From Norana najaformis (lineage: Eukaryota; Annelida; Clitellata; Crassiclitellata; Hormogastridae), in the NCBI GenBank assembly GCA_964023275.1, contig OZ029913.1:38876757-38940756 (forward strand): a stretch of DNA of 64,000 nucleotides, given 5' to 3'. Shown here one piece after another: positions 3,151 through 37,745 of the stretch. The stretch's first letter is position 1. Every line of letters begins with the position of its first letter. The position numbers and the translations under genes are program-made. The notes under the pieces are model-generated. The model was not told the origin of the DNA and ran no database searches. It saw only the letters and a list, made by a program, of their open reading frames with translations.

Positions 3151-3153
3151 AAG

Positions 3154-3950
3154 GTCACATAACATGCGGGGGGCCGTTACCTCTAGCTTTATTCTGCTTC
3201 CCAGAAAAACTGAGCCATAAGACCGTGCAAATAGGTCACATAACATGCGGGGGGCCGTTACCTCTAGCTTTATTCTGCTTCCCAGAAAAACTGAGCCATA
3301 AGACCGTGCAAATAGGTCACATAACATGCGGGGGGGCCGTTACCTCTAGCTTTATTCTGCTTCCCAGAAAAACTGAGCCATAAGACCGTGCAAATAGGTC
3401 ACATAACATGCGGGGGGCCGTTACCTCTAGCTTTTATTCTGCTTCCCAGAAAAACTGAGCCATAAGACCGTGCAAATAGGTCACATAACATGCGGGGGGC
3501 CGTTACCTCTAGCTTTATTCTGCTTCCCAGAAAAACTGAGCCATAAGACCGTGCAAATAGGTCACATAACATGCGGGGGGCCGTTACCTCTAGCTTTATT
3601 CTGCTTCCCAGAAAAACTGAGCCATAAGACCGTGCAAATAGGTCACATAACATGCGGGGGGCCGTTACCTCTAGCTTTATTCTGCTTCCCAGAAAAACTG
3701 AGCCATAAGACCGTGCAAATAGGTCACATAACATGCGGGGGGCCGTTACCTCTAGCTTTATTCTGCTTCCCAGAAAAACTGAGCCATAAGACCGTGCAAA
3801 TAGGTCACATAACATGCGGGGGACCGTTACCTCTAGCTTTATTCTGCTTCCCAGAAAAACTGAGCCATAAGACCGTGCAAATGCGGGGGGCCGTTACCTC
3901 TAGCTTTATTCTGCTTCCCAGAAAAACTGAGCCATAAGACCGTGCAAATA
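3154..3950. repeat. 81-bp minisatellite, about ten copies
   Basis: Copies of gtcacataac start at 3154, 3235, 3316, 3398, 3480, 3561, 3642, 3723 and 3804, giving periods of 81, 81, 82, 82, 81, 81, 81, 81. The two 82-bp steps are single-base insertions (one G, one T). The tenth copy lacks about 12 bp of the start. Copies are almost identical, so the array is young. Because 81 is a multiple of three, both strands stay open for >130 codons; I do not regard these as genes. Confidence 0.95.
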
Positions 3951-9394: not shown

Positions 9395-12300
9395 AGTCTG
9401 AATTCGAATCTCGTTTTGGCAGCAATTGTCGTTGTCTTTGGATCTTCGTTCCAGTTCGGGTATAACCTTGGAGTACTTAATCCACAAGCCCCCGTAAGTA
9501 CCGGTCCATTCTTGTATCTGTATGTATGTACATGCATACAAATTAACTTTCAAGTAGGCCCTATATGCATGCAGACATACATACATACATACATACATAC
9601 ATACATACATACATACGAACGGACTGACAATTCATAATATTTGTTGATGATATCAAAATGTGAGTTTTGGTGAGGTGGGGCTAACCAAGGTAGGTGACGT
9701 GAGGTGAGAAGCAGTAAAGTAAGGCGAGATAAGATAGTGCAAGGTAAAGTACGGTAGAATAATTTAGAGTAATGCAAGCTACGGTTATTAAGTGTGATAC
9801 TTGTACTTCATTCATGCATTTCAGTGGCCTTTAAGAGGTTTATAAAAGGCACTATATAAATAGATACGTGCATAGTTTGAGGCATATCTACAGTTGTTTT
9901 GACTGATTTGACTGAGTTCAGCTGATAAAGACATTCTACGCGGAGGTGTTGAATGAAACGAGTGCTCCGGTCTACACAGCCAGCTCCAGTGAAATTACGG
10001 TTCTCTGGTCTCTAACGACGGCCTTGTTCATTCCTGGTGGCTTGATTGGGTCTCTGCTGGGCGGATGGATGGCCGACCGATTTGGAAGGTATCATACTCT
10101 TCTTCTTTATTATCGATTCTGATAACTTCTGTAGCGCCACTGTAACAATACTCACGGCATCAGTCGATGGTAGCGGCATGTCAAAGTCCAGGGTGAATCC
10201 GGTGGAAGGTCATATAAGCTGCTAAGGATTCAAGAAGCGGTCAAATCAATTAGGAAAGTAAAGTATCTGGCAATACAATATAGGTTGTTGGCCACTAAAG
10301 AAAGAAAGACAAGAAAAGCCGCTATGCACTTGTATTTGCTCCATTTTATTTTTATATGTATTTTTAATATTTTCGCTTCTTTATACTTACATAGCGCAAA
10401 TGGTTGTGTTAATTTAAGACTTCGTAGAACACCACTTAACAATCTAATTATAATTATTCCCTAGTATTTAAGGACTTGCTCAATGTCCCTAGGGAGCAGC
10501 AACCGTTTCACGGGAGGCTTGAAATCTCGCACTCCTCGTTACAAGGCGAGCGTTCAACCAATCGGATATTTATATAGCGCCTTTTCTGAACTTGTCAAAG
10601 ACGTGTCTTTCATTGTGTTTGACATGTCTCTTTTAGAAAGAACACGCTTATCTTCAGCCACCTGTTTATCCTGCTTGGCGCTCCGTTGGCAGGTGCGTGT
10701 GTCGCAGCCAGCTCTCCAGCTCTGCTTATGGTCAGCCGCGTATTCCTCGGATTAAACTCAGGTAGGCTTCGTATAATATCTACCTGCATGAATGCGTAGT
10801 TGATTGTAATCTGTCTGTGGACAAGGCTGGATCCATTTCCTAGCTATCAGTTAAGGAATTGGTTCAGATGGATTCGTTCCCCAAGTAACTGAGCCAGCAC
10901 ACCAATATCAAGTGGCCATCTATATGTAGAGGCTTAGAAAGGAGTTACGAAGTAAGCAAGGTCACACCTAACTTCCTTGCTGTGGACTTATTAAGCAGAA
11001 AAAAATCTGTTTTAAGAACGTTTTCAGTTTCCAAATTTTTTCAAGACAGTTTCAGCATTTTTTAGTTTCGATTTTTTTCGTAACCATTTTCACTTTCCAA
11101 GTTTAATAGACAACCCTGAGTAACAGTAACTAGTTTGGGGAGAGTTCTCTGGCTTGCCCTTACCCCAAGTCGGGCAAGAGGGTAATACCCTGATTGGTCT
11201 TCTAGATCCGCCCTTTCCAATACACAGGTCTTATCTAAAGCCATCTTACTAGATCTGGTAAATAATCTAATCTAATGATTTCTATAGCGCCATTATTGTA
11301 ATACAAAAGGCTTTTATCGATAATCGCTTCAAGTAAAACCGTGCGAAAAATTCGTGTTCCGTTGGAGTAGCAAATCGAAATCCGATGATCATGGAAGCAT
11401 GTTCAGTTCAGAATTTCGTGGTAAGACTAACCGGCGTTTGGATGTTTAGGTCTCGGCAACTGCGCTGCTCCAATGTTTCTGTCGGAGATTTCGCCGTTCT
11501 GCATCAGAGGAGCCTTTTCTACGGTCCATCAGCTCTTCATAACCATCGGAATTCTCATGTCGAGCATCTTCGGTCTGCCTCAGCTTCTGGGTACTGTCAA
11601 ACTCGTCTGTATTTTTTCCAGCATATCAATATGGGGGAACTTATGTCCAGTCGGAGATAGCATGAATAAGAGGGTAGGCGAGTTTCTCTTTCCTCTGCAA
11701 ATAGCACCCCGCTCTCGTTGCATCTTTTTATCGTTCTCTATCCTCCCAACTTTCCTCTCTCTTTCTCTCTCGTACTCTGTCTTTCTGGTTATCTACCTGT
11801 CTACCTTTCTGTCTGTCTGTCTGCCTGTCTGTCTGTCTGTCTATCTGTCTGTCTGTCTTTCTGTCTGTCTCTTGCTCATCGGATAGAACACGTCTTTGAA
11901 GCTGGTCTCGAAAGGCAACGATGGGTATTAAGCGTTAGTGGCATATGACGGCGAGTGGCAAGACCTCTTCCTCGCGGCGGATCTTCCCACCAACAATGTA
12001 CAGTCAGTATATTCATTTTTATTGCCGAGTTCACTATAAGGACGCCAAATGAAACATATACAATTATTTTAATCGTGTTAAACTTATACTGGTGATTTGC
12101 TAAAATGCAGGCAATGAGTCAAATTGGCCGTATCTATTCCTGCTGGAGCTCATTCCTGCAATAACTGCTCTGGTGGCAATTCCTTTCTTAGAAGAGACTC
12201 CGAGATTCCTTTTGCTCATAAAGAATGATGAATCGCTGGCCAAAAAGGGTACTACATTGACAATTTTTGGTATACGTTGATAAGGTTTAGGCATATTGAC

Positions 12301-20548: not shown

Positions 20549-20916
20549 GAGTTGATAGTAGGAACAAGTGGTCATATCAAGGGGTCAGTAGGAACAAGTG
20601 GTCATATCAAGGGGTCAGTAGGAACAAGTGGTCATATCAAGGGGTCACTAGGAACAAGTGGTCATATCAAGGGGTCAGTAGGAACAAGTGGTCATATCAA
20701 GGGGTCAGTAGGAACAAGTGGTCATATCAAGGGGTCAGTAGGTACAAGTGGTCATATCAAGGGGTCAGTAGGAACAAGTGGTCATATCAAGGGGTCAGTA
20801 GGAACATGTGGTCATATCAAGGGGTCAGTAGGAACAAGTGGTCATATCAAGGGGTCACTAGGAACAAGTGGTCATATCAAGGGGTCAGTAGGAACAAGTG
20901 GTCATATCAAGGGGTC
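20549..20916. repeat. 30-bp minisatellite, ~12 copies
   Basis: The unit starts agtaggaacaagtggtcata. Copies differ by single bases: cacta variants at 20647 and 20857, ggtacaagt in the 20741 copy and aacatgtgg near 20803. Thirty is a multiple of three, so two frames read through as a 10-residue repeat (for example SRNKWSYQGV). No promoter, splice site or homologue supports a protein. Confidence 0.95.
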
Positions 20917-23264: not shown

Positions 23265-26200
23265 TCAGACAGTTGTACCATTCCTAATCTTCTCCTGACT
23301 GGAATAAATCTTCGCTGTATTACAAGTTCCATTCGAGTCAAGCAGCCTCAGAGAAGAGGGCGGCGAACCCCATGCATCATTTGGGACACCTCCGTTGTGC
23401 ACTTCCACTACGGTGGCGACATCTGAGTTTGTCAGTGGCGGTCGGTAGAGAAAGAGTGCAATAAAGAAGAAGCCGAGTGAAAGACCCTTGCAGCAGAAGA
23501 CAAGCGTCAGGAAGTAAGTGCCCATTGACCAGTTGTCATATGTGAAGCAAGATCCTTTCTCACTGAGACAGGGCTGCTGCTGCCATGCAAGGCATGCTCG
23601 GTCGATCAAAGATCCAAACAGCACAGGCGCTGGAATCATACCTACAATCGATAACAACCAAACACAACCTTAACCCACTAATGCAAACCCAAATTGGCAA
23701 AACCAACTATAACCTTAACCCACTGATGTAAATGAAAAATCAACAGATTGACAGATAGACAGAGACAGACAGACATACAGACTAACCAACTGAATGACTG
23801 ATTGAGGGATTTATGAATTTGCTGAATGATGGGCTGATTGGTACATAAAAACAGAAACTGCCAAAATACTAAGTGAGAAAATTTCATTCGCACCCAAACA
23901 TCGGAAAAGCATCCACTGAATTCCCAGCGCAAACGATCTCTGCTTTTCTGGAACACACCTGGAAAGCAACACAGGAAGGCAACTTAAACAAGACCAACAA
24001 CGAGAAAACAAGACTAAAAACCGAGCAAATCAAACTGGAAAAAATTAAGCAATTTCTAAAAACAGAGAAAGTCCATAAAACAAATAAAAAATCCCATCCC
24101 AAAAATTCCTAAGCAACTTATTACATTAAGAAAGCATTTGGATCAGTAGTTCCAGACTATACCTAAGAGTTGCTGAGAGTGCTGGCATGCTGGTGACGAA
24201 CGTGACGAATATTATCATTGCGAAGATTGGAAGGAAGATCGTCAGAAGCTGGCAAGAACCCTCACATTTACCCTCAAGTGCAGTCGCATTTTGGATCAAA
24301 CCGTCTTCAGCCAGCATTGCTGAAATGCAGCTGCAGTCTTGGTAGACCTGCTCAGAATGACAACATCAACCCTTGAAAATGACAAGAGATCTTAAGAATA
24401 CAAAATAAACAAGCCAAACAGGTTAACAATCGTATAATAAATACATTATAACTGACACTTGAACACCAATAAAATATCTAACAAGTAAGTACAGAAATAA
24501 GGGCATATATATATGAACAAATGAACTATTATTCTCTAGACAGATAAACAATATTAACTAGGTGCACCTAAGCATTCTAAGTCAATTTTAATACATAAAA
24601 ATATGCATTCTAAACATACAACAGAATTTTGACTGCGTGTGTGTACACACGTGTGTGTAACCCCAGCTCTAAGTCAGCATATGCATAGGTACCTACACAT
24701 TCATACAGCGTCACACAGAACCTCGCAAAAACACTGACAGCTTCAGTATCACAGATTACGACATACAGATATGTAGAAACCAAGAACACAATGCAGACCA
24801 GGGTATGATTTCTAGGGCAGAAGAAGGGCAGTTTCCACCCACACTAGTTCAGGTTATCTCAAATTAAACATACATTTTCCCCACACAAGCTTCTCCTGCC
24901 CACAGGTCTTCCCCCCACAGGTTAAGATTATCTCCAGTGCCAAAGGCAGGTAGTTCATCCATCCAGCAATAGAAGATAGTCCATCAGTTTACACCTACAA
25001 TGCTTCCATCAATGCTATGATTACCCCACGAATTTTGCACGTGCTCATATGTCTATCCCACACGGGTAGAGATTATCTCTTGCTGAAGATACATTTAGCT
25101 CCTGTTCCCAGGTTTTCCACTCCCTCTGCAGCCAAAGACAGATGACACCCTGCCAAGACATTCGTACCAACCTTGAGACCATCCACTGTGTCAACACCAG
25201 AACAGCCAGCGTGACACGGTGAGAAGTAAGTGAGTTTGTCTGAGCCACAGACCGGACTGTATCGCTCGGAGGAACATACACAACCTATGTTGCAGAAGGC
25301 TGTCAGATTCACCTGCTCCAACGTTCTGCACGTAAAACAGAACACAACCAAGGTAAATGGTAGCCAACACAGGTGAAGCCTAATCATCAAATTAAAAATG
25401 ACATCGTAATCATAAAGTCAAAAATTTCTAAAGCACTACTTGAAGACTAAGTGCAGGGCAAAAGCTATTTAACTTCGCCTCGGGGGGTTGCAAACCAGGA
25501 ACTCTTCGTGCCGGTCCCAAGCCCGGATAAAGGAGGAGGGTTTGTCAGATGAGTGTCGATGCGCTGACAGTAAAAAACAAAGACGATTGAAATCCGATGC
25601 CAAGTGACAACGCTTCGGGAGCTGGGCCATGCCGTACTGGAAATACAACAGTGGAGGAGCGTGGTGAAAATGGTATCGGACACCTACGGGCGCTGAGCCC
25701 ACGGTGCATGATGATGATGAAAAGCTATTTCAAGAGTGCTGCATCAAGTCAGAAGAGTTACCCAAGGACACCGCGCAAATAACAAGATGCAGTTGCAGGG
25801 AGACTAGCGGGGGAAGGAAACAGAAGAGCAGTTACTGTGCCTTGTGTTTATGTTGAGAGATTGAGGGCTTTAGTTTTGAATGGAAAGCCATCACACAGGT
25901 GATCCTGGGATTTGGACACGGGAAAGGTGGGGCCAAGAACTTCATTCATTCGTTCATCCATTCAGTTATTTATTCATTCTTTCAATCATTCATTCATTCA
26001 TTCATTCCTCCATCAGTTCATTAATTCAGAAAACTGAGTGCAACTACCAAGTCGCCATCAACAGCCATGACCTCTGACCTGTTTCGTTGCGAGTATTCGA
26101 GGTTGACCCCAACAAAGCCCATGTCAGGGCAGCGGGCCAACATGCACAGCGTCAAAAGGAGAGAGGTGAAGGTCGTTACGATGCACAGCCGAAGGATACC

Positions 26201-29200
26201 GACACAGCGCAGGTTCAGCCGCTTCACCAGGTAACCACCAAAGAACGTCCCACCTCCACCAGACGGAATCGTCGCAAAGCCTGCATTTTGCCAATTCAGA
26301 TAACGCAATGTAGTGTAATAATGTAATGGTAATGTGATGTGATGTAATATAATGCGATGCAATGTATTCTGATCTAATGTAATAATGTAACATGATGTAC
26401 TGTCAATTAATGTGATGTAGTGATGTCATGTGACATAATGCAGTGCAATCCAATGTAATGTTAAAAAGACAATTTTTATAGCACAGTTTTATATCAATGC
26501 ACTTTCAATAGTGATTTACAGTCATGTGATATACGTTTACATTAGAATGAAACGACTGATAAAATCAGAAAAGCATTTATCACACATCTAGTCAGTCAGT
26601 CACTCAGTAAGTCAGTCAGCCAGCCTCTCATTTAGTCAGTCAGTCAGTCAGTCAGTCAGTCAGTCAGTCAGTCAGTCAGTCAGCCAACCAGCCAGCTAGC
26701 TTCTTAGTCAGTCAGTCAGGTCAGTCAGGTCAGTCAGTCAGCTTCATATTCAGCAAGTCAGTAAGTCAGTGAGTCATTTAGTCAGCCATTCAGGCAGGCA
26801 GGTAGGTAGGCAGACTGCAGGTAATAAATTACCATACTTTCAAATGAGCAGTTAACAGAGCATTCTTCCTATGTGAGGTAGTTCGAGTGTGTATGATTTA
26901 CAATGTGTGGATTCAGCAACACTTAGCTTTTTGGCAAATCGAGCAGTGCTAAAAAAGTAGTTTTTGGAGATATATGAAGATTTCCTTGTTGAACTGTGAT
27001 ATTTTTAGAATAAAGGTAAGAGCTTGGACCACAATTAGCAATGGTGAAGTGTAATCAGGGGAGTTATTTTGAAGCACATAAGAAAGAACGGAGCGCTTAA
27101 ACAGTTAGCTTTTCGATGACTGAAGTAGTGCTGTAGAAGTAGTTATTAGGAAGATAGAGAGTGTCTCAGCGAACTTCAACATTTTAGAATAAAGGCTAAA
27201 ACTAAATTACCATACTTTCAGATTATTATTATTATTATTACTATTAAATTGTATTATTAATGCTTATTATTAATTACCACCGACTATAGCGCTGGTGTCT
27301 AATGCATAAAGCATCAACCAATGGTGCATCAAAAGCAAGTAACCAGAAAGCAAGCCAACTGAGAAAGGCAAGTCTGAATTAGTGACCGAAATGACATAAC
27401 AGATTGAGCCGAGTGAACAGACGCAGAAAGAGAGCTCCAAAATTTTAGTTCATCAGCCAAAGAAACTCGCTCACCAAGAACAGTTCCAGTTTTGACAAAA
27501 ACGGAGAAAGAATCTGATGACCTGGTTGAATAACGATAAGGATTTAATGTTTTTTAAACTATAAGCCCTAATTTTAAACAGATCCTTTGCTGAACAGGAA
27601 GCCAATGCAAAGATTTAAGTACAGGGGTCATACGCTCATATTGGATGTGTCAGTGAAGCTGCACCGTGACGGGCGTTTATGAGCAATTACCACACAAGAC
27701 CACGATTCCAATACTTTTAAATGACCACTTACCTTGTCATACCATACTTACCGTATTTTCCTTAGCATACCATACCTTATTGGATCCTTTTTAAGACTTA
27801 CCAATCAGCTGTGCAGCCCAGGCGGCAGAAATGTTGAACTGGGACTCGACAAACTTTGGGGCAAAGACGATGAACCCACTCACGAGAAGACCTGACGACA
27901 ACAAAAATGAGCAGAAACAAATGTATTAATGCTTGGATATGCAGGTCCCTTACTTCTGTACATCAGCTCGAGCTGATCTTGCTTTCCTCCACATCGGCCC
28001 ATTCTGCTGGAATTAAGCCTCCCATTGCATATACATACTGTTTCATTAAACTCCGCTCAGTTTACATTTTCAACCTTCTTTAAGTTGCTTTAAGTTAACT
28101 TATCTGGAACGTCAAACCTACTTTACTAGGTCTGAAGACAGGTACCACAGAGGATTGGCCTGCACAAATACCAGGCTATTCTCTATTAAATGTATTGGCC
28201 CTGGCTTATGGAATAGTTTGCCTTCTGATTTGCATATACTGCCTAGTTTGTACTTAATTAAGAGACACATGCATACTTATTTGAGCACAATTTCCAATAG
28301 TTCAGTTAGTTTTGTATGTTTGATTGTGATTATTTGTTTTGGTTACGCCTTAGTTTTAATTTTGCTCTAAATGTCTTAAATGACATACTTCAGTTAATAT
28401 ATTTTAAGCTGATCATTCGCCACTGCACATTTGTATTAGGTTATAGGTGGCTCCATTAAGCAGGACCTTGTCCTTTTGATACCCATGGAGATTTTTTACA
28501 CTGTCCTTAAGAAGATCTTGGTTTGTTTGAACGGTTTCAATAAACGCTTGACTGATTGATTGATTGATGTTTACAGCTGTTAGATAGCATTGCATGCAGT
28601 GAGTGATTGTTGAGAATTTGATGATGAAGGACTGGTCGCAGACTTTTAACTCAGAATTCTAAGCCAAAATTTCTAAATCCAGGATTCTAACCAACTGAAT
28701 ACCAGCCACAGATTCAAGCTCGGATATCTAATCCCACAATGCTATCTTTGCAATTCTAACCCTCAGAATTCACTCAGAATTCTCACCCCACAACACCAGC
28801 CTCAAAATTCTAACACCAACATTACAAGTAAGGCATTCTAACCCTCAGTAATCATGCTCACAATTCAAACTCCACAAAACAGGCTGAGGAATTTTAACCC
28901 CAGCAATTCTTGCCTCAGAATTTCAGTTGCAAAAATGAACAATTTTAGCAAAGATGGTAAAAACTTGAAGCAGATTGAGCAGTGAGCACTATATACCTTC
29001 ACAGGCTCCAGCCATGTTGAGCGACATGAAGGTTGGATTCTTGAAGAGGATTTTCAATGAGGCAGGGATGTCTTTGAGACTGAAGCTAAATCCTGGATTT
29101 GCGTTTGATGTGTCAGATCCTTTGTACACTTCAGAGACTCTCTCTTCCCGAAGTTTTGCCGATCCTGTGTGAAAAGAAAACAATACATTTAACATAATAA

Positions 29201-32200
29201 TCATAACTACTATTACTATTTTTACTCGTCAATAATTTATGTTTTTATTCAGAACATTTATATAGTGCCACTTCAAGATGTCTACTCAAAGGTGGTTCCA
29301 GCCCAGCCCTGGCAAAAGAGTTTTCAGCTTTGGTGTAAGGCAAATGTTGCATCCCTGGCCAGAAACTAATTTCAATAACTTCCAAATATTATATACCAAT
29401 CTCTTATTTCGCCAAACTATGGTAGCACAAGAAACAAAACACGAGAAATAAGAAAAAACAGCAAACTGATCAGGACAGCACACCTGCCTGTGATATTATA
29501 CAACAGTTTAACACCATCAGAAAAAATAATCAGTCAATTATGGTGATTGAGAAAATCACATACAAAACTGACTGCAGCATCATTACTGAAAAAACATTTC
29601 TGGAAATGTTGTAGTCAGCCAGCAGTACTTAATGTTAGGTTGCTGCACAAAGTGCAGTACAGACTCAACGTTGGTGTGACAGCTTTTCAAGATTTTACAT
29701 ATGGCAGAGTTGTAAATGTACTCTAAAGAGTTCAGCTCACTGTTGTTAAGGCTAACAGCTTCCGTTCCATATAGGAGGAAAGGTTCACAGTAGGAACTAA
29801 CTATATGCAGCAAGACAGGTTTCACTAAATTTGTGGCATTTACTATATAAAGAATTGAACGATTTATAAAACTTCATCCTCATTTCATGCAGACTAACTT
29901 CAAATGACTTGGCTACAACCAGAAAACAGACGAGATATTTAAGCTTATCAGCATAACTGATTTCTATTCCACTGATGGTACTAATATTTTTCATACATTA
30001 CACAACAATGTCTTAATCCTTATAACTTGAGATTTAGTTACATTTAGTTTCATATTCAAATTTCTATTCTGCATGTGATCTACAATACATCAAGACTTCC
30101 TGGTAAAGCTAACCATTCTGTATCATATAACGCATATTCACTTGTCATAAGCAAATTTATTTTTATTTATATCTTGCACTTGTTTTCTACGCAGGGTCAG
30201 TAAATCTGAATTTGAAGTACGAGACAAGCAAATGTGAACAACATGTTGCAGGTCGTTACACAAAGTCAGTTACACTCAGCAGTCTTGGACTACAGATGCA
30301 GAGCACTACAGGCGAGACCACCATAGAAAGTTACCTGGTAGGGACTTTGGAAAGCCGCTGAGAGGTAGGGCAAGAAGGAATGCCAGTGTGCCACTGATCA
30401 GGAAGCCAATCCACCAGGCACCAACCCACTGCGAGTCCTCGGGATTGAGACTAATTCTACAACAGAACATTTGCTCCACATTACTCAATGGTAAATTAAA
30501 AGTCCAGCAGAACATACCTAATGAATATAAATGTAAATTCTGTCCTGTAACCCAAAGTGTTCATGAAACTGCAGGTTCGCCTGTGCCAGTCCAAAGTCTG
30601 GATAAAGGAGGAGAGTTGAATGGTAGGGCGTAGATACAAATACCTGCCGTTAAACTAAAAGATGACAGAAATCGATCATATGATGTCAGGAAATTCATGA
30701 CACAGGACAATTGTATAAACAAAACACCAGATCGGACATCACCTGGGACAAACGCTTTCTTAATCCATAAATGCCTTCATACCTTCTTCTCCTCCTGGAT
30801 ATCTGTTCATTTCTTGACTCTGGCACGAAAGGGAAGTGTGAAGGTAAACAATTAAATGTGTATTGTGATAAGTGTGTGCGATGGATAACACTCGGATATT
30901 GAAACAAGTTGCAATTAATGGCAGTGAGACGTGCATTCGACATCGACAGGCAGTGAGCCTACAGACTTCAAAGAAGGAAGGAAGAAACCTATACTAGTGA
31001 GATGCAGAGTAGGTGCTGATATCCTTTTTCACAGTTCCTCGTAAGAAACTTAATCTAATCAGGTCAGGTAAGTGAAAACCAATTACTAAAGCGCCACTCA
31101 TCAGGTAATTTGTAAGGCGTCACACATCAGATGACTTCTAGGGCATCACGCATCAGAAGACTTGTAAGGTGTCACATATTAGGTTATTTCAAGGGGTCAC
31201 ACGTTAGATTACTTATGACATCACACATCAGGTGGCTTCTAGGATGTCACACGTCGGGTGACATCTAAGGCATTAGTAAAAGTGCTTACGTGTTCATGTC
31301 AACCCAACCCACGTCGCAGTAGAGTTTCAGCAGCTGACCACCCAAGATGTAGCCAATAGCTGGACCAATGATCGCAGTTGAGTAGAAAACCCCTAAAAAC
31401 CAAATTACAGATTACAGTATTAATCAAACACAATGCTTAGTCCTGAGATAATATCTATATATAGCAGTACAAGTAACTCAATTCCTATTCAAACTCAAAC
31501 TCAAATTCACTTTCAATTTGAATTCTAATTCAATTCAACTCAATTAATACAAAATTCAAATTCAGTCCAATCAATATCAAATTCAATAAATATTCCATTT
31601 AAATAATATTTAACTCAAATTCAAATCATATTCCAAATACGCTCAGAAATTCTTAACAAATATCTATCAGAGAAAACCATCTGACATACCGAGGTACATT
31701 GGCGTCAGTTTCGCCTTCAAGTTTTCATCCAGATATGTCACCGCAAGGGTGTATATTGGTGTAGCACCGGCCCCGTGTAGCATCTGAGCTATGACCATAA
31801 TGTACATGTAATGAGACAGTGGCGGAGCGGTGGCCCCAGTATCGTAACAGTCACTGATACTTCCATTTCCGGAAAACAAGTCTCTGGTAGCACCGCTTCC
31901 ATTGGCTTCACCACGACAAGTGGTCTGGTGACCAGTAGTGTCATAGGTGTAAAGGTCAACCAAGAAGTGTGGAAGCGCAAAGAGGAATGAGCCCAGGCTG
32001 AGAAGGAAGATGCCAGCAACGATCCAGCGAGGCTTGTTTCCATTTCCACCAAAGTAGCTAACAGGAACAAGGCAGAGGACAGACGCAATGTCGTATCCGC
32101 TGGCGACAAAGCCAGACTGCGTGCTTGTCAGGTCGAAGCGCTTCTCGATCGTTGAGATGACGACGCTCACAAAACCATTGACCACCATTCCCTAGCAACA

Positions 32201-33603
32201 TGAAAAACACAATGCACCGGTTGCTATGGCTGTTTCCCCAATGTCCTGAATATTGATGTAAACGAGAAAATAAACAACTGTTTTGTTTTCCACTGCTGTA
32301 TTACAAAATCCAACCGCTGTATTGGTATTCTGAAAGACTGACCCAAGATTGTGCAACAATTCAGTGGAGTCACAAAGTTTCTCTGATTAGATTAGATTAG
32401 ATTAGGTTTATTGCTAACGTGATGATCAAACTACCTGATTAGTTCAATCAATCAGTAAATTTAAACAGCACCTCTTCAGAATATCTACTCAAACGTGCTA
32501 CCATCCCAGTGAAAGAGAACTGTTTTCAAGTATTGATAAAGTTGCAAGGAATGTTCATAGTCAGAAGATGCAGGTTAAGATTAAGTCCATTTATTCCAAA
32601 ATCATAATTTTTATCTGAGGCAGGAATGATTCCCCAAGAAATGAGAAACAGGCCAGGAGTGTAATGTAAGCTTTTGTAATTGTTACATTAAGCACGGTTC
32701 AATGTAATCATACGTTCATCACAATCATTAGTGATAATTACCAACTCATACTGTTTAGAACTTTTCTTGAAGCTAAACAATGTAAGCATCCGTTTACAAT
32801 ACAAACAGGGCAATCAAATAACTATCACTGATAAGATAAAAGCAATTTGTCACATCATACATGCTTCATATTCAATACGCTATTGTACTATTTTACTATT
32901 ATTATTGTTTCATTATGATAATTATTTCAATAATATTCATACACTGCCTCTATGGCTTATTAATTAACTATTATTATTGTAATTATTCAAATTTAATATT
33001 TATTTAATTACAACTAATTTTGTAGACAATTATTTTACTATTAACAGTACTTCATTGAAATAATTATTTTATCAGTATTAACATTTTATTAAAATATTAA
33101 TATACTTGTAATTGTTTATGTAGTTATGATCCCTTGGGATTTCAGAACATTTCCTGTGACTAAAGACATTAAAAATACCCTGTTATTATTCCGATTTTAT
33201 TAGAATAATTGATAATGACAGTAACCTGGATTATGGCAAGGAGACAGAGACAGATTAGCACCATCTTGGCATTCCGAAATTGCTGACAGCATTTTGGTTT
33301 CAGCGGTCCCCATCCACAAGGTTCATCATCATCATCATCATCATCGTCGTCTATCCCATCTGCTTCTGTATCCAATGTCTTTGACAGGGGTAACCCAGCA
33401 ACTGCCACATTCATTATGACGCCATCGCAGTACAACCCGCTGGTATCCAGACCCTCCATGGATGTCAAGCATGGAGGTGCAAAATCGCCATTTTCAAAGC
33501 TGTGCTGGTCCGCGTCGAGGACTTCGGTTGTGTAGGAACTGACATCCGTTGTCAAAGTACTGTCGCCGAGGCTACTGTTCGTCACCAACGAACCATCCAT
33601 CAT
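23265..33603 (-). CDS. SLCO4A1-like: Organic anion transporter polypeptide, SLCO4-like, complete
   Basis: Eleven exons (minus): 33603-33226, 32191-31690, 31392-31290, 30456-30335, 29164-28997, 27891-27802, 26280-26079, 25325-25172, 24347-24163, 23958-23894, 23641-23265. All borders are GT/AG and the phases agree, giving 781 codons plus tga. An in-frame stop precedes the MMDG start. The protein is a 12-TM sodium-independent carrier of amphipathic organic anions at the plasma membrane. Visible: nine Asp at residues 85-93, CGWGPLKPKCCQ (96-107), TM1, ERRF-like STIEKRFDL, SYFGGNGNKPRW, HGAGATPIYTLAVTYLDEN, the superfamily signature as DSQWVGAWWIGFL (~333-345, Gln for the usual Arg), GFPKSLPG and a Kazal-like loop with CVCSSERYSPVCGSD...CHAGC...DCSC (~530-580). 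LCLVPVSYFGG and CGWG favour the SLCO4 branch (from memory). Length fits the family. Confidence 0.95.
25465..25730 (+). repeat. RTE-type LINE/SINE 3' fragment
   Basis: Contains gtcccaagcccggataaagg near 25520, a module also seen near 30590, 48760 and (minus) 47600. It ends with cacggtgcatgatgatgatg, a trinucleotide tail typical of RTE-type elements. Lies in an OATP intron. Confidence 0.5.
25940..26025. repeat. ATTC tetranucleotide microsatellite
   Basis: cattcattcattc with breaks, intronic, next to OATP exon 26280-26079. Confidence 0.8.
26300..26460. repeat. Degenerate AATGTAATGTGATG array
   Basis: Drifting aatgt/gatgt pentamers directly upstream (minus strand) of OATP exon 26280-26079. Confidence 0.75.
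26590..26830. repeat. GTCA tetranucleotide array
   Basis: Long agtc run with drift to agcc and aggc at its end. Confidence 0.9.
26831..27801. other. OATP intron with ATT repeat and SINE-like sequence
   Basis: att run at 27222-27245. At 27280-27330 ctatagcgctggtgtctaat and aagcatcaaccaatgg mark a dispersed repeat. At 27560-27700 a block with gaagccaatgcaaagattta resembles common LINE/SINE 3' sequence. Nothing coding. Confidence 0.45.
28130..28572 (+). pseudogene. LINE 3' end (antisense in OATP intron)
   Basis: The frame from 28155 reads IGPGLWNSLPSDLHILPSL then KRHMHTYL, matching the LWNSLP...FK..LK..L motif at the end of CR1/Jockey-type reverse transcriptases. It is followed by a 3' UTR and a terminal gattgattgattgat tail at 28555-28568. 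That fixes the element's 3' end. Confidence 0.7.
28620..28930. repeat. Degenerate repeat around CAGAATTCTAACCC
   Basis: Many spaced copies of gaattctaac and caattc with a loose ~25-bp spacing; old and strongly diverged. Confidence 0.6.
29249..29365 (+). repeat. Dispersed SINE-like family (TTTATATAGTGCCACTTCAAGA)
   Basis: Core catttatatagtgccacttc, then tctactcaaa and gcaaaagag-ttttcag. Related copies: 32445-32560, 33796-33885 and 50747-50870, all in the same orientation. Confidence 0.65.
29583..30175 (-). pseudogene. LINE reverse-transcriptase remnant (sense in OATP intron)
   Basis: On the minus strand the frames give, in order, a damaged YADD region, HMQNRNLNMKLNVTKSQVIRI, ISYADKLKYLVC, FEVSLHEMRMKFYKSFNSLY and YCEPFLLYGTEAVSLNNSEL. 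This is the palm-to-thumb order of a non-LTR reverse transcriptase, with frameshifts and stops. The catalytic motif is disrupted. Confidence 0.75.
30165..30312 (-). repeat. SINE-like copy related to 5235-5450
   Basis: Shares tgcactt, cgagacaag and ggtcgtt-cacaaagt in the same order with the copy at 5235-5450. Confidence 0.5.
30580..30640 (+). repeat. Fragment with GGATAAAGGAGGAG module
   Basis: gccagtccaaagtctggata followed by aaggaggag: a diverged copy of the module at 25520 and 48760. Confidence 0.45.
31090..31275. repeat. Degenerate ~31-bp tandem repeat
   Basis: About six units built from gtcacacatcag-tgacttctaggg. Intronic in the OATP gene, next to the donor of exon 31392-31290. Confidence 0.7.
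31480..31650. repeat. Degenerate CAAATTCAATTC low-complexity block
   Basis: Drifting tcaaattcaa units in the intron after OATP exon 32191-31690 (minus-strand order). Confidence 0.65.
32380..33160. other. OATP first intron: SINE-like copy and AT-rich tract
   Basis: Short gatta run at 32385-32407, a SINE-like copy at 32445-32560, then very AT-rich sequence to ~33120 without a coding signal. Confidence 0.5.
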
Positions 33604-35085: not shown

Positions 35086-35214
35086 GTATATATGCATGCA
35101 TGCACATACATATATACATACACATATGTATGTATGCAGGTATCTATGTACGAAGACACTTACTATAGCTCCTTTTAAGTACCTCACAAAAACACTGCCT
35201 ACACTAGTTTATTA

Positions 35215-35317
35215 CACTGGTCAACATAGAAATCGTTACTGACTGGAAAAGGCCCTAATGTGTAGCATCTTGGTGTGCTGAACACGAATATAACCATAAA
35301 AAGTTTTTATTGGCTCT
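35215..35317 (+). repeat. Left terminal inverted repeat of the 35.2-37.6 kb transposon
   Basis: Blocks and matches are given under the element; the longest perfect match to the other arm is 17 bp at 35275-35291. Confidence 0.85.
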
Positions 35318-35510
35318 CGTTTTGAAAATATTTCATATAGTTCATTTTTTATGTTTCACCATGTAAATTTATGCAGTAGGACTGCGACAATATCCTAAAT
35401 AAGTCTAGAATGATGTAATATTCCACCTCATTGCATAATCCCATCATGGACACATCATGCACAGTTGATTACGTCATTTTCTGATGCAATGTAAAACTAC
35501 AGCCAGTCGG

Positions 35511-35550
35511 CTGCTGACGTAAGATGACGTCAGCAGTGTACTATATAAAG
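35511..35550 (+). promoter_or_regulatory. Palindromic CRE-like site and TATA box of the transposon
   Basis: ctgctgacgt (35511-35520) and acgtcagcag (35527-35536) form a perfect 10-bp inverted repeat with a 6-bp spacer. The right arm overlaps a full tgacgtca (35525-35532). A TATA box, tatataaag, follows at 35542-35550, 115 bp before the ATG. The arrangement suggests a host bZIP-responsive core promoter; binding is inferred. Confidence 0.6.
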
Positions 35551-35664
35551 CGAGTCGGAACGGTTGAGCATTTACAATATTACAGACTTTGTGCGAGACA
35601 GTTTAAGTTACTGTTTTATAAAACTATTATTACTTTATCCATTTAGATACAATACAGAACAGTA

Positions 35665-37356
35665 ATGCCTCGGAAGTGCGTAAATACTGTGGACAACTTT
35701 TGTTACATTTGTGGGGAAGTGACATTTGCCAACCAGAAGAAAAGTATCACTTATCAAGTCAAGAAGGCATATCATGCTTACTTCGAATGCAAGGTTGGTG
35801 ACCAAGACAAGCCATGGGCCTCGCATATATGCTGTGCTACATGTACAACACAGCTTTCACAGTGGTTGAATGGCAAAAGACCATCAATGCCGTTTGCAGT
35901 TCCCATGGTGTGGAGAGAGCAAAGCAACCACGTAGATGACTGTTACTTCTGCTTGGTTCCTCCTCTTTCCGGTGGAATAACGAAGCAAAAGAAGTCGACA
36001 ATAGTCTACCCAAACATTCCGTCAGCATTGAGACCAGTTCCACATGGTGATGGACTTCCTATTCCAGAACCTCCAGCAGAATATATTTTCCTTGATTCAT
36101 CTGATGAGGACAAGGGTGAGCCGACATGTTCTTCTCCTGGTCCGTCAGCGTGCAGTGATCCCGATTTTCACTGTGGTGCATCATCAACCTCACACAGAAT
36201 AACACAGGAAGAACTAAATGACCTTGTTCGTGATTTGGACTTATCCAAAAACAAGGCAGAATTGCTAGGATCAAGACTCCAACAATGGAATCTTCTAGAA
36301 GAAGATGTCACAATTACTTCATATAGAAAGCGCCATCAGCAGTTGGAACCTTTCTTTATGAAGGAAGGTAATCTGGTATTCTGTTCCAATATTGACGACC
36401 TCATGAATGCCTTACAGATCACTCATGACCCACAAGAATGGAGACTCTTTGTAGACTCTTCAACACTGAGTCTTAAGGCTGTGCTTTTGCACAATGGAAA
36501 CCGTCTTCCATCTATTCCATTAGCGCATGCTGTCCACATGAAAGAGACATACGATAACCTAAAACAGCTACTGCATTCCATTGACTATAACAGGTACAAA
36601 TGGCACCTGTGTGGTGATTTGAAGGTAGTTGCCATTTTAATGGGACTGCAGCAAGGATATACAAAATATATGTGTTTCTTGTGTGAGTGGGATAGCCGAG
36701 CAAGAGAGTTGCACTACGTGCGGAAGGAATGGACTCACAGACAAAACATGGCAGTTGGACAGAAGAATATCCAGCACCCATCTCTGGTCGAGGCTCACAA
36801 AATCCTACTACCACCCCTTCACATCAAACTAGGTTTGGTGAAGAACTTCGTGAAAGCCATAGACCGCACTTCGCCAGCTTTCCGATACCTGCATGAAAAA
36901 TTCCCTCGACTCAGCGAAGCAAAGATTAAAGAGGGAGTTTTTGTGGGTCCTCAGATTAGAGAACTCTTCAAAGATGACCGCTTCAACAACTTGCTGGAGG
37001 GTGATGCGAAACAAGCATGGAATGCTTTTCGTCTAGTGTCTACAGACTTTCTGGGGAATGTTAGGGCAGAAAACTACAAGGAACTAGTAGAAGACATGCT
37101 CAAGCAGTATCAGAAATTTCGCTGCAATATGTCTCTGAAGATGCATTTCCTTCATTCCCATCTGGATTTCTTCCCTGACAACTGTGGTATGGTTAGTGAC
37201 GAACATGGCGAACGTTTTCATCAAGATATCGCAACAATGGAGCAAAGGTTCCAGGGAAAATGGTCCACTACAATGTTGGCTGACTACTGCTGGACACTCC
37301 GCAGAGATGCTCCCGAACAGCTGTACAAGAGACAGGCAAAAAAATCTAAGAACTAG
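35665..37356 (+). CDS. Transposon-encoded protein, probable transposase of an unnamed family
   Basis: 563 codons without interruption, ATG at 35665, tag at 37354-37356. The N-terminus has zinc-binding-like pairs: C13-x2-C16, H37, C42, C56/C57-x2-C60, H89, C93-x2-C96. An acidic/Ser linker (~130-175) and a predicted helical stretch (~180-225) follow. The core shows FVDSSTLSLKAVLLHNG (Asp ~263), LPSIPLAHAVHMKE, HLCGDLKVVAILMGLQQG (Asp ~317), CFLCEWDSRARELHY, then LHSHLDFFPDN and SDEHGERFHQDI (~511-522). Spaced acidic residues in a beta-rich core fit a DDE/RNase H-like transposase, but this is inference. From memory, similar proteins occur in many copies in invertebrate genomes, labelled uncharacterized. 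Intact frame plus TIRs imply recent activity or selection. Confidence 0.85.
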   Translation: MPRKCVNTVDNFCYICGEVTFANQKKSITYQVKKAYHAYFECKVGDQDKPWASHICCATCTTQLSQWLNGKRPSMPFAVPMVWREQSNHVDDCYFCLVPPLSGGITKQKKSTIVYPNIPSALRPVPHGDGLPIPEPPAEYIFLDSSDEDKGEPTCSSPGPSACSDPDFHCGASSTSHRITQEELNDLVRDLDLSKNKAELLGSRLQQWNLLEEDVTITSYRKRHQQLEPFFMKEGNLVFCSNIDDLMNALQITHDPQEWRLFVDSSTLSLKAVLLHNGNRLPSIPLAHAVHMKETYDNLKQLLHSIDYNRYKWHLCGDLKVVAILMGLQQGYTKYMCFLCEWDSRARELHYVRKEWTHRQNMAVGQKNIQHPSLVEAHKILLPPLHIKLGLVKNFVKAIDRTSPAFRYLHEKFPRLSEAKIKEGVFVGPQIRELFKDDRFNNLLEGDAKQAWNAFRLVSTDFLGNVRAENYKELVEDMLKQYQKFRCNMSLKMHFLHSHLDFFPDNCGMVSDEHGERFHQDIATMEQRFQGKWSTTMLADYCWTLRRDAPEQLYKRQAKKSKN

Positions 37357-37454
37357 TCTATGACCTGGTTTTTACAAATATTAACTGTAAGTGTATCACT
37401 ATTGGCATGCATTGTGCGATATAAAATTACTTCATTTCAGTTTACAAAAAAACT

Positions 37455-37566
37455 AGAGCCAATTCGGCATTTTCACTGTCATATTCGTGTTCAGCACATA
37501 CAAATTGATAAGAACTGACTAATTTCATTTCAGTAACATGACTTTTGTAAAATTTGTTGTCCAGTG
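37455..37566 (-). repeat. Right terminal inverted repeat of the 35.2-37.6 kb transposon
   Basis: Reverse complement of the left arm in block order; ends ccagtg at 37561-37566. Confidence 0.85.
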
Positions 37567-37745
37567 AATTATTATTATTAATTCTGCATTTATTAAGTGC
37601 CACTATTTAATGACTAAGCATCAACCAATGGCGCTGAGCAACGGTAACTGTATCAGTGGAGGCTCAAACCCATACTCTCCTCATTACAAGCAAAGAGCTC
37701 CATCCAGTCCGCTATTGTAGCCCACAGTCTAACTGATGTTTACCA
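37567..37745 (-). repeat. tRNA-headed SINE-like copy directly abutting the transposon
   Basis: Contains aagcatcaaccaatgg and, on the minus strand, gcttgtaatgaggagagtat then gggtttgagcctcc (B-box-like), related to 10440-10600. It starts at the transposon's right end, so the transposon may have inserted at its edge. Confidence 0.5.

Follow-up and report, generated by a model that had tools for sequence, protein, structure and literature searches.

A 64,000-nucleotide window of the genome of the annelid Norana najaformis (GenBank assembly GCA_964023275.1, contig OZ029913.1, forward-strand positions 38,876,757 to 38,940,756) contains a 2,352-bp element on the plus strand (35215–37566 of the window) that reads CACTGG...CCAGTG at its ends. 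The element is bounded by terminal inverted repeats (TIRs) and carries a single-exon open reading frame (ORF) of 563 amino acids (35665–37356, plus strand), whose product we interpret as a transposase of the Chapaev3 group. Alignment of both ends places the 5′ TIR at 35215–35336 on the plus strand and the 3′ TIR at 37440–37566 on the minus strand, each with an approximate inner limit, and global alignment of the 150-bp ends orders the repeats over ~120 bp as CACTGG-CAACA, GTTACTGA, TGTGCTGAACACGAATAT and ATTGGCTCT. The TGTGCTGAACACGAATAT block matches perfectly over 18 bp between the 5′ repeat (35274–35291, plus strand) and the 3′ repeat (37481–37498, minus strand), and an ungapped 50-nt block of the TIRs shows 78% complementarity. 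A local TIR score of 45 was equaled or exceeded in 3 of 1,976 random 150-bp pairs from the window, and no further copy of the element was found there at E ≤ 0.01. The ORF has no internal stop, with 29 and 32 stops in the other two plus-strand frames. A sequence-only reading of this DNA had proposed the same termini, imperfect TIRs of more than 100 bp with ordered blocks and an uninterrupted 563-codon frame, all of which we confirm; the perfect block, given there as 17 bp, is one base longer.

The encoded protein belongs to an abundant family. One homology search scored 7,989 candidates, of which 2,029 proteins passed E ≤ 0.001, and a search seeded with a moth relative recovered 2,385 proteins at the same threshold, with the best 120 listed in each case. 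For 98 of the 120 listed homologues the longest contig measures 2.0–2.9 kb (median 2,409), about the length of one element; contigs of this size would be expected where a repeat breaks assembly, though data of this sort are rich in short contigs in any case. A host is named for three of the 120 listed homologues: Ranitomeya variabilis, Pyrocoelia pectoralis and Mythimna loreyi. The closest listed relative, P0001, is 98% identical to the window protein, with 10 differences over the full length. Our family alignment, A1, comprises 106 rows; of the 120 listed proteins it leaves out 15, which are for the most part shorter than the others. Among DNA relatives, the viral_contigs search gave no match to the protein query and 100 pattern matches to the alignment query, none of them confirmed, and the genome_contigs search gave 31 pattern matches, likewise none confirmed.

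Predicted catalytic core and candidate N-terminal zinc domain

Structure prediction indicates a RAG1/Transib-like transposase core at approximately residues 176–555 (36190–37329, plus strand, as are all protein features below). In the model, D264 (36454–36456) lies on the first core strand (residues 259–265), D318 (36616–36618) sits directly after the fourth strand (314–317), and E513 (37201–37203) opens the C-terminal helix (513–528). Each is invariant in 106/106 rows; D264 and D318 would be the first and second catalytic aspartates and E513 is the likely third catalytic residue, with E516 as the alternative in a stretch where D512, E513, E516 and H519 are each invariant. The C(2)C motif C337-x2-C340 (36673–36684) and the H(4)H motif H494-x4-H499 (37144–37161) fall between D318 and E513 in 106/106 rows, and the LH motif L385-H386 (36817–36822) is equally invariant. 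RAG1 residues D600, D708, C727, C730, H937, H942 and E962 served only as a lead; the spacing from the second aspartate to C(2)C is taken to be the same as in RAG1. The predicted RAG1/Transib-type fold and the invariant acids support the earlier proposal of an RNase H-like DDE transposase, with the acids placed there at D~263 and D~317 corrected to D264 and D318. The motifs singled out in that reading (FVDSS, CGDLK, CFLCEWDSR, SDEHGERFHQDI and a Cys/His cluster) are all present with key residues invariant, but their other letters vary across the alignment, where variants include FIDSS, CADLK and SDEQ.

Identity to the HzTransib structure (PDB 6PQX) is 15%, three other HzTransib entries score 12.0–12.3, and identity to RAG1 and ProtoRAG (BbRAGL) is 10–14%; the absence of a family from the structural match list does not exclude that family. 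The hAT group, for which a best match to Hermes-type transposases would be the structural mark, was among those considered. Foldseek comparison with viral proteins returned none at E ≤ 0.001. Pfam scans gave no match above cut-off for the window protein or for 58 relatives, each of the latter scanned singly at E ≤ 1 or E ≤ 10. A Retrotrans_gag match at E 0.11 was taken as chance.

The N-terminus harbors a zinc cluster, C13xxC16...C57xxC60...H89...C93xxC96 (35701–35952), that is invariant in 106/106 rows and is a candidate Chapa domain. Modeled from one sequence alone, the first 142 residues gave no usable fold (predicted local distance difference test, pLDDT, 33). RAG1_imp_bd, the Pfam model of the RAG1 N-terminus, matched 3 of 59 members weakly in one register (E 0.23–0.32), and zf-AD (ZAD) matched 5 of 59 at E ≤ 10, the best at E 0.0017 with 19 bits, where the cut-off is 28; the zf-AD matches located in four of these five (P0111, P0004, P0026 and P0108) share one register. 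These sub-threshold matches overlap at residues ~13–72 (~35701–35880). A possible, though rather unlikely, reading is that the family's zinc domain connects the importin-binding region at the N-terminus of RAG1 with the ZAD domain of insects; a literature search, judged by titles and abstract openings, found no connection of ZAD with RAG1, transposases or Chapaev.

Probable assignment to Chapaev3 and alternative explanations

Chapaev3 is a known, RAG1-related group of animal transposons (Kapitonov and Jurka 2008, cited in PMC4411706) that includes the families Garfield, Merrow and Conan (Zhang et al. 2014, PMC4079192). PMC4079192 describes a Chapaev3 element of 2,289 bp with a 556-amino-acid transposase bearing DDE residues and the motifs C(2)C, LH and H(4)H, CAC...GTG termini, insertion at A-TWA-T with a 3-bp TWA target duplication between the A and the T, and mostly one exon. 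The wider CMC/Transib (CMCT) clade, as defined with C(2)C and H(4)H in the available part of PMC12730594, has mostly 5′-CA...TG-3′ termini, target duplications of 2 to 5 bp and the RAG1/Transib fold. The Norana element shares the clade's termini (CACTGG...CCAGTG) and, by prediction, its fold; it further resembles Chapaev3 in its ~2.3-kb length, CAC...GTG ends, a ~560-amino-acid transposase that combines DDE residues with the motifs C(2)C, LH and H(4)H, animal hosts and a 5′ flank, ATTA (35211–35214, plus strand), that matches the A-TWA rule published in PMC4079192. Of 63,997 positions in the window, 977 (1.5%) carry the pattern ATWA. Its single exon agrees with most Chapaev3 elements, whereas Garfield and Merrow have two (PMC4079192). 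On the basis of shared size, ORF, motifs, termini, single exon, 5′ ATTA and an N-terminal Cys/His cluster with weak RAG1-model matches, we therefore file the element as an autonomous-type Chapaev3 DNA transposon of the CMCT clade, with a probability of roughly 0.87. The sequence-only reading had left it in an unnamed superfamily, which finds no support given the Chapaev3 sequence hallmarks described in PMC4079192, PMC12730594 and PMC4411706; the element is a good specimen of a known group and not a new kind.

In canonical Transib, no domain other than the core can be identified (PMC4411706). RAG1 is a host recombinase, and the Norana element has no second plus-strand ORF of at least 80 amino acids and hence no RAG2-like partner. 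Chapaev elements outside Chapaev3 belong to the same clade and share CAC...GTG ends, but some carry a RING finger (PMC4411706), whereas neither RING nor PF06918 is among the matches listed here, and the flank is in better agreement with the 3-bp TWA rule of Chapaev3. The available parts of PMC13282606 (octopus repeats) and PMC3630058 mention Chapaev elements in tables only. Literature searches on four protein motifs, and on CACTGG ends with terminal inverted repeats and transposase, matched no paper.

Several observations weigh against the Chapaev3 assignment. No target duplication of 2–8 bp abuts both ends in the one copy compared: the 3′ flank is AATTAT (37567–37572, plus strand), in which the expected TTAT begins two bases past the element end, and the junction reads GTG-AA-TTAT inside a (TTA)n tract with TWA two bases off, possibly through slippage or later change. 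No sequence named Chapaev3 is among the matches listed in the homologue searches, and membership consequently rests on hallmarks, not a tree. When the A1 profile was run against PDB sequences, it matched three chains at E 1.4–2.6, none of them a transposase; as RAG1 and Transib are absent from these matches, the link to both is one of fold and motif only. The missing abutting TWA, the comparison with named Chapaev3 families by description only and the lack of a Pfam family above cut-off would also suit an undescribed CMC/Transib lineage, separate from Chapaev3, that shares its fold and CAC ends but follows a target rule of its own. We regard such a lineage as distinctly improbable, since the element agrees with published Chapaev3 in size and ORF length, in its CAC...GTG ends and C(2)C/LH/H(4)H motifs, and in having A-TTA on the 5′ side.

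Compatible with Chapaev3 membership is the possibility that this is a dead or decaying copy of a mobile family, with an inactive transposase or unusable ends. The window protein departs from six columns conserved at 90% or more in the other 105 alignment rows, and three of these changes (S53, S176 and F529) are private to it where P0001 keeps the consensus: proline in all other 105 rows at S53, proline in 94% at S176 and tyrosine in 99% at F529. The description of the element as apparently intact thus holds for the open ORF and both ends, and is tempered by these substitutions and by the altered 3′ flank without an abutting duplication. Against decay stand the open 563-codon frame, retention of all catalytic and zinc residues and 98% identity to P0001; we consider an inactive copy a serious possibility at somewhat less than even odds, and the copy may be recent and active. 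The intact ORF and a position upstream of a host gene would also be expected of a domesticated host gene of transposon origin, yet the flanking TIRs are still matched and relatives are numerous, the listed ones mostly on element-sized contigs, which makes domestication hardly credible.

If it works as RAG1 and Transib do, the transposase would bind the subterminal TIR blocks through its N-terminal zinc domain and the N-terminal helices of its core, and a transposase dimer would synapse both element ends. Using two metal ions, the D264/D318/E513 site would then cut beside the CAC ends, probably through a hairpin, and the excised element would be joined to a T/A-rich A-TWA-T site, for which the literature predicts a 3-bp TWA duplication. 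Placing 2,029 unannotated proteins (E ≤ 0.001, best 120 listed) in the RAG1/Transib fold allows annotators to name them. According to PMC4079192 (2014), Chapaev biology is largely uncharacterized. As a single-exon copy that is nearly intact and retains both ends, the element is a practical candidate for biochemical work on Chapaev3 transposition.

Candidate promoter and neighboring features

Upstream of the ORF, a cyclic AMP response element (CRE)-like TGACGTCA (35525–35532, plus strand) and a TATA-box-like TATATAAA (35542–35549, plus strand) are positioned 116–140 bp 5′ of the transposase start codon and may form a putative transposase promoter. An imperfect palindrome (85%) at 35511–35536 encloses TGACGTCA just 5′ of the TATA-like box.

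Exons of a host organic anion transporter (OATP) gene span 23265–33603 on the minus strand; on this strand, Pfam OATP matches lie at 31667–32188 (E 1.7e-50) and 23265–23639 (E 2.5e-10). The element lies ~1.6 kb upstream of a minus-strand ORF at 33169–33603, without a Pfam match, which by eye we take to be the OATP N-terminus and apparent first coding exon. Two tandem repeats are also present: an 81-bp unit in nine copies at 3152–3882 (99% alike, open on the minus strand) and a 30-bp unit in twelve copies at 20557–20916 (97% alike, open on the plus strand and encoding SRNKWSYQGV repeats), where a Pfam defensin match probably arises by chance from the repeat. A 35-residue Sugar_tr match (PF00083, E 2.5e-6) at 11473–11883 perhaps marks an exon of a sugar-transporter-like gene.
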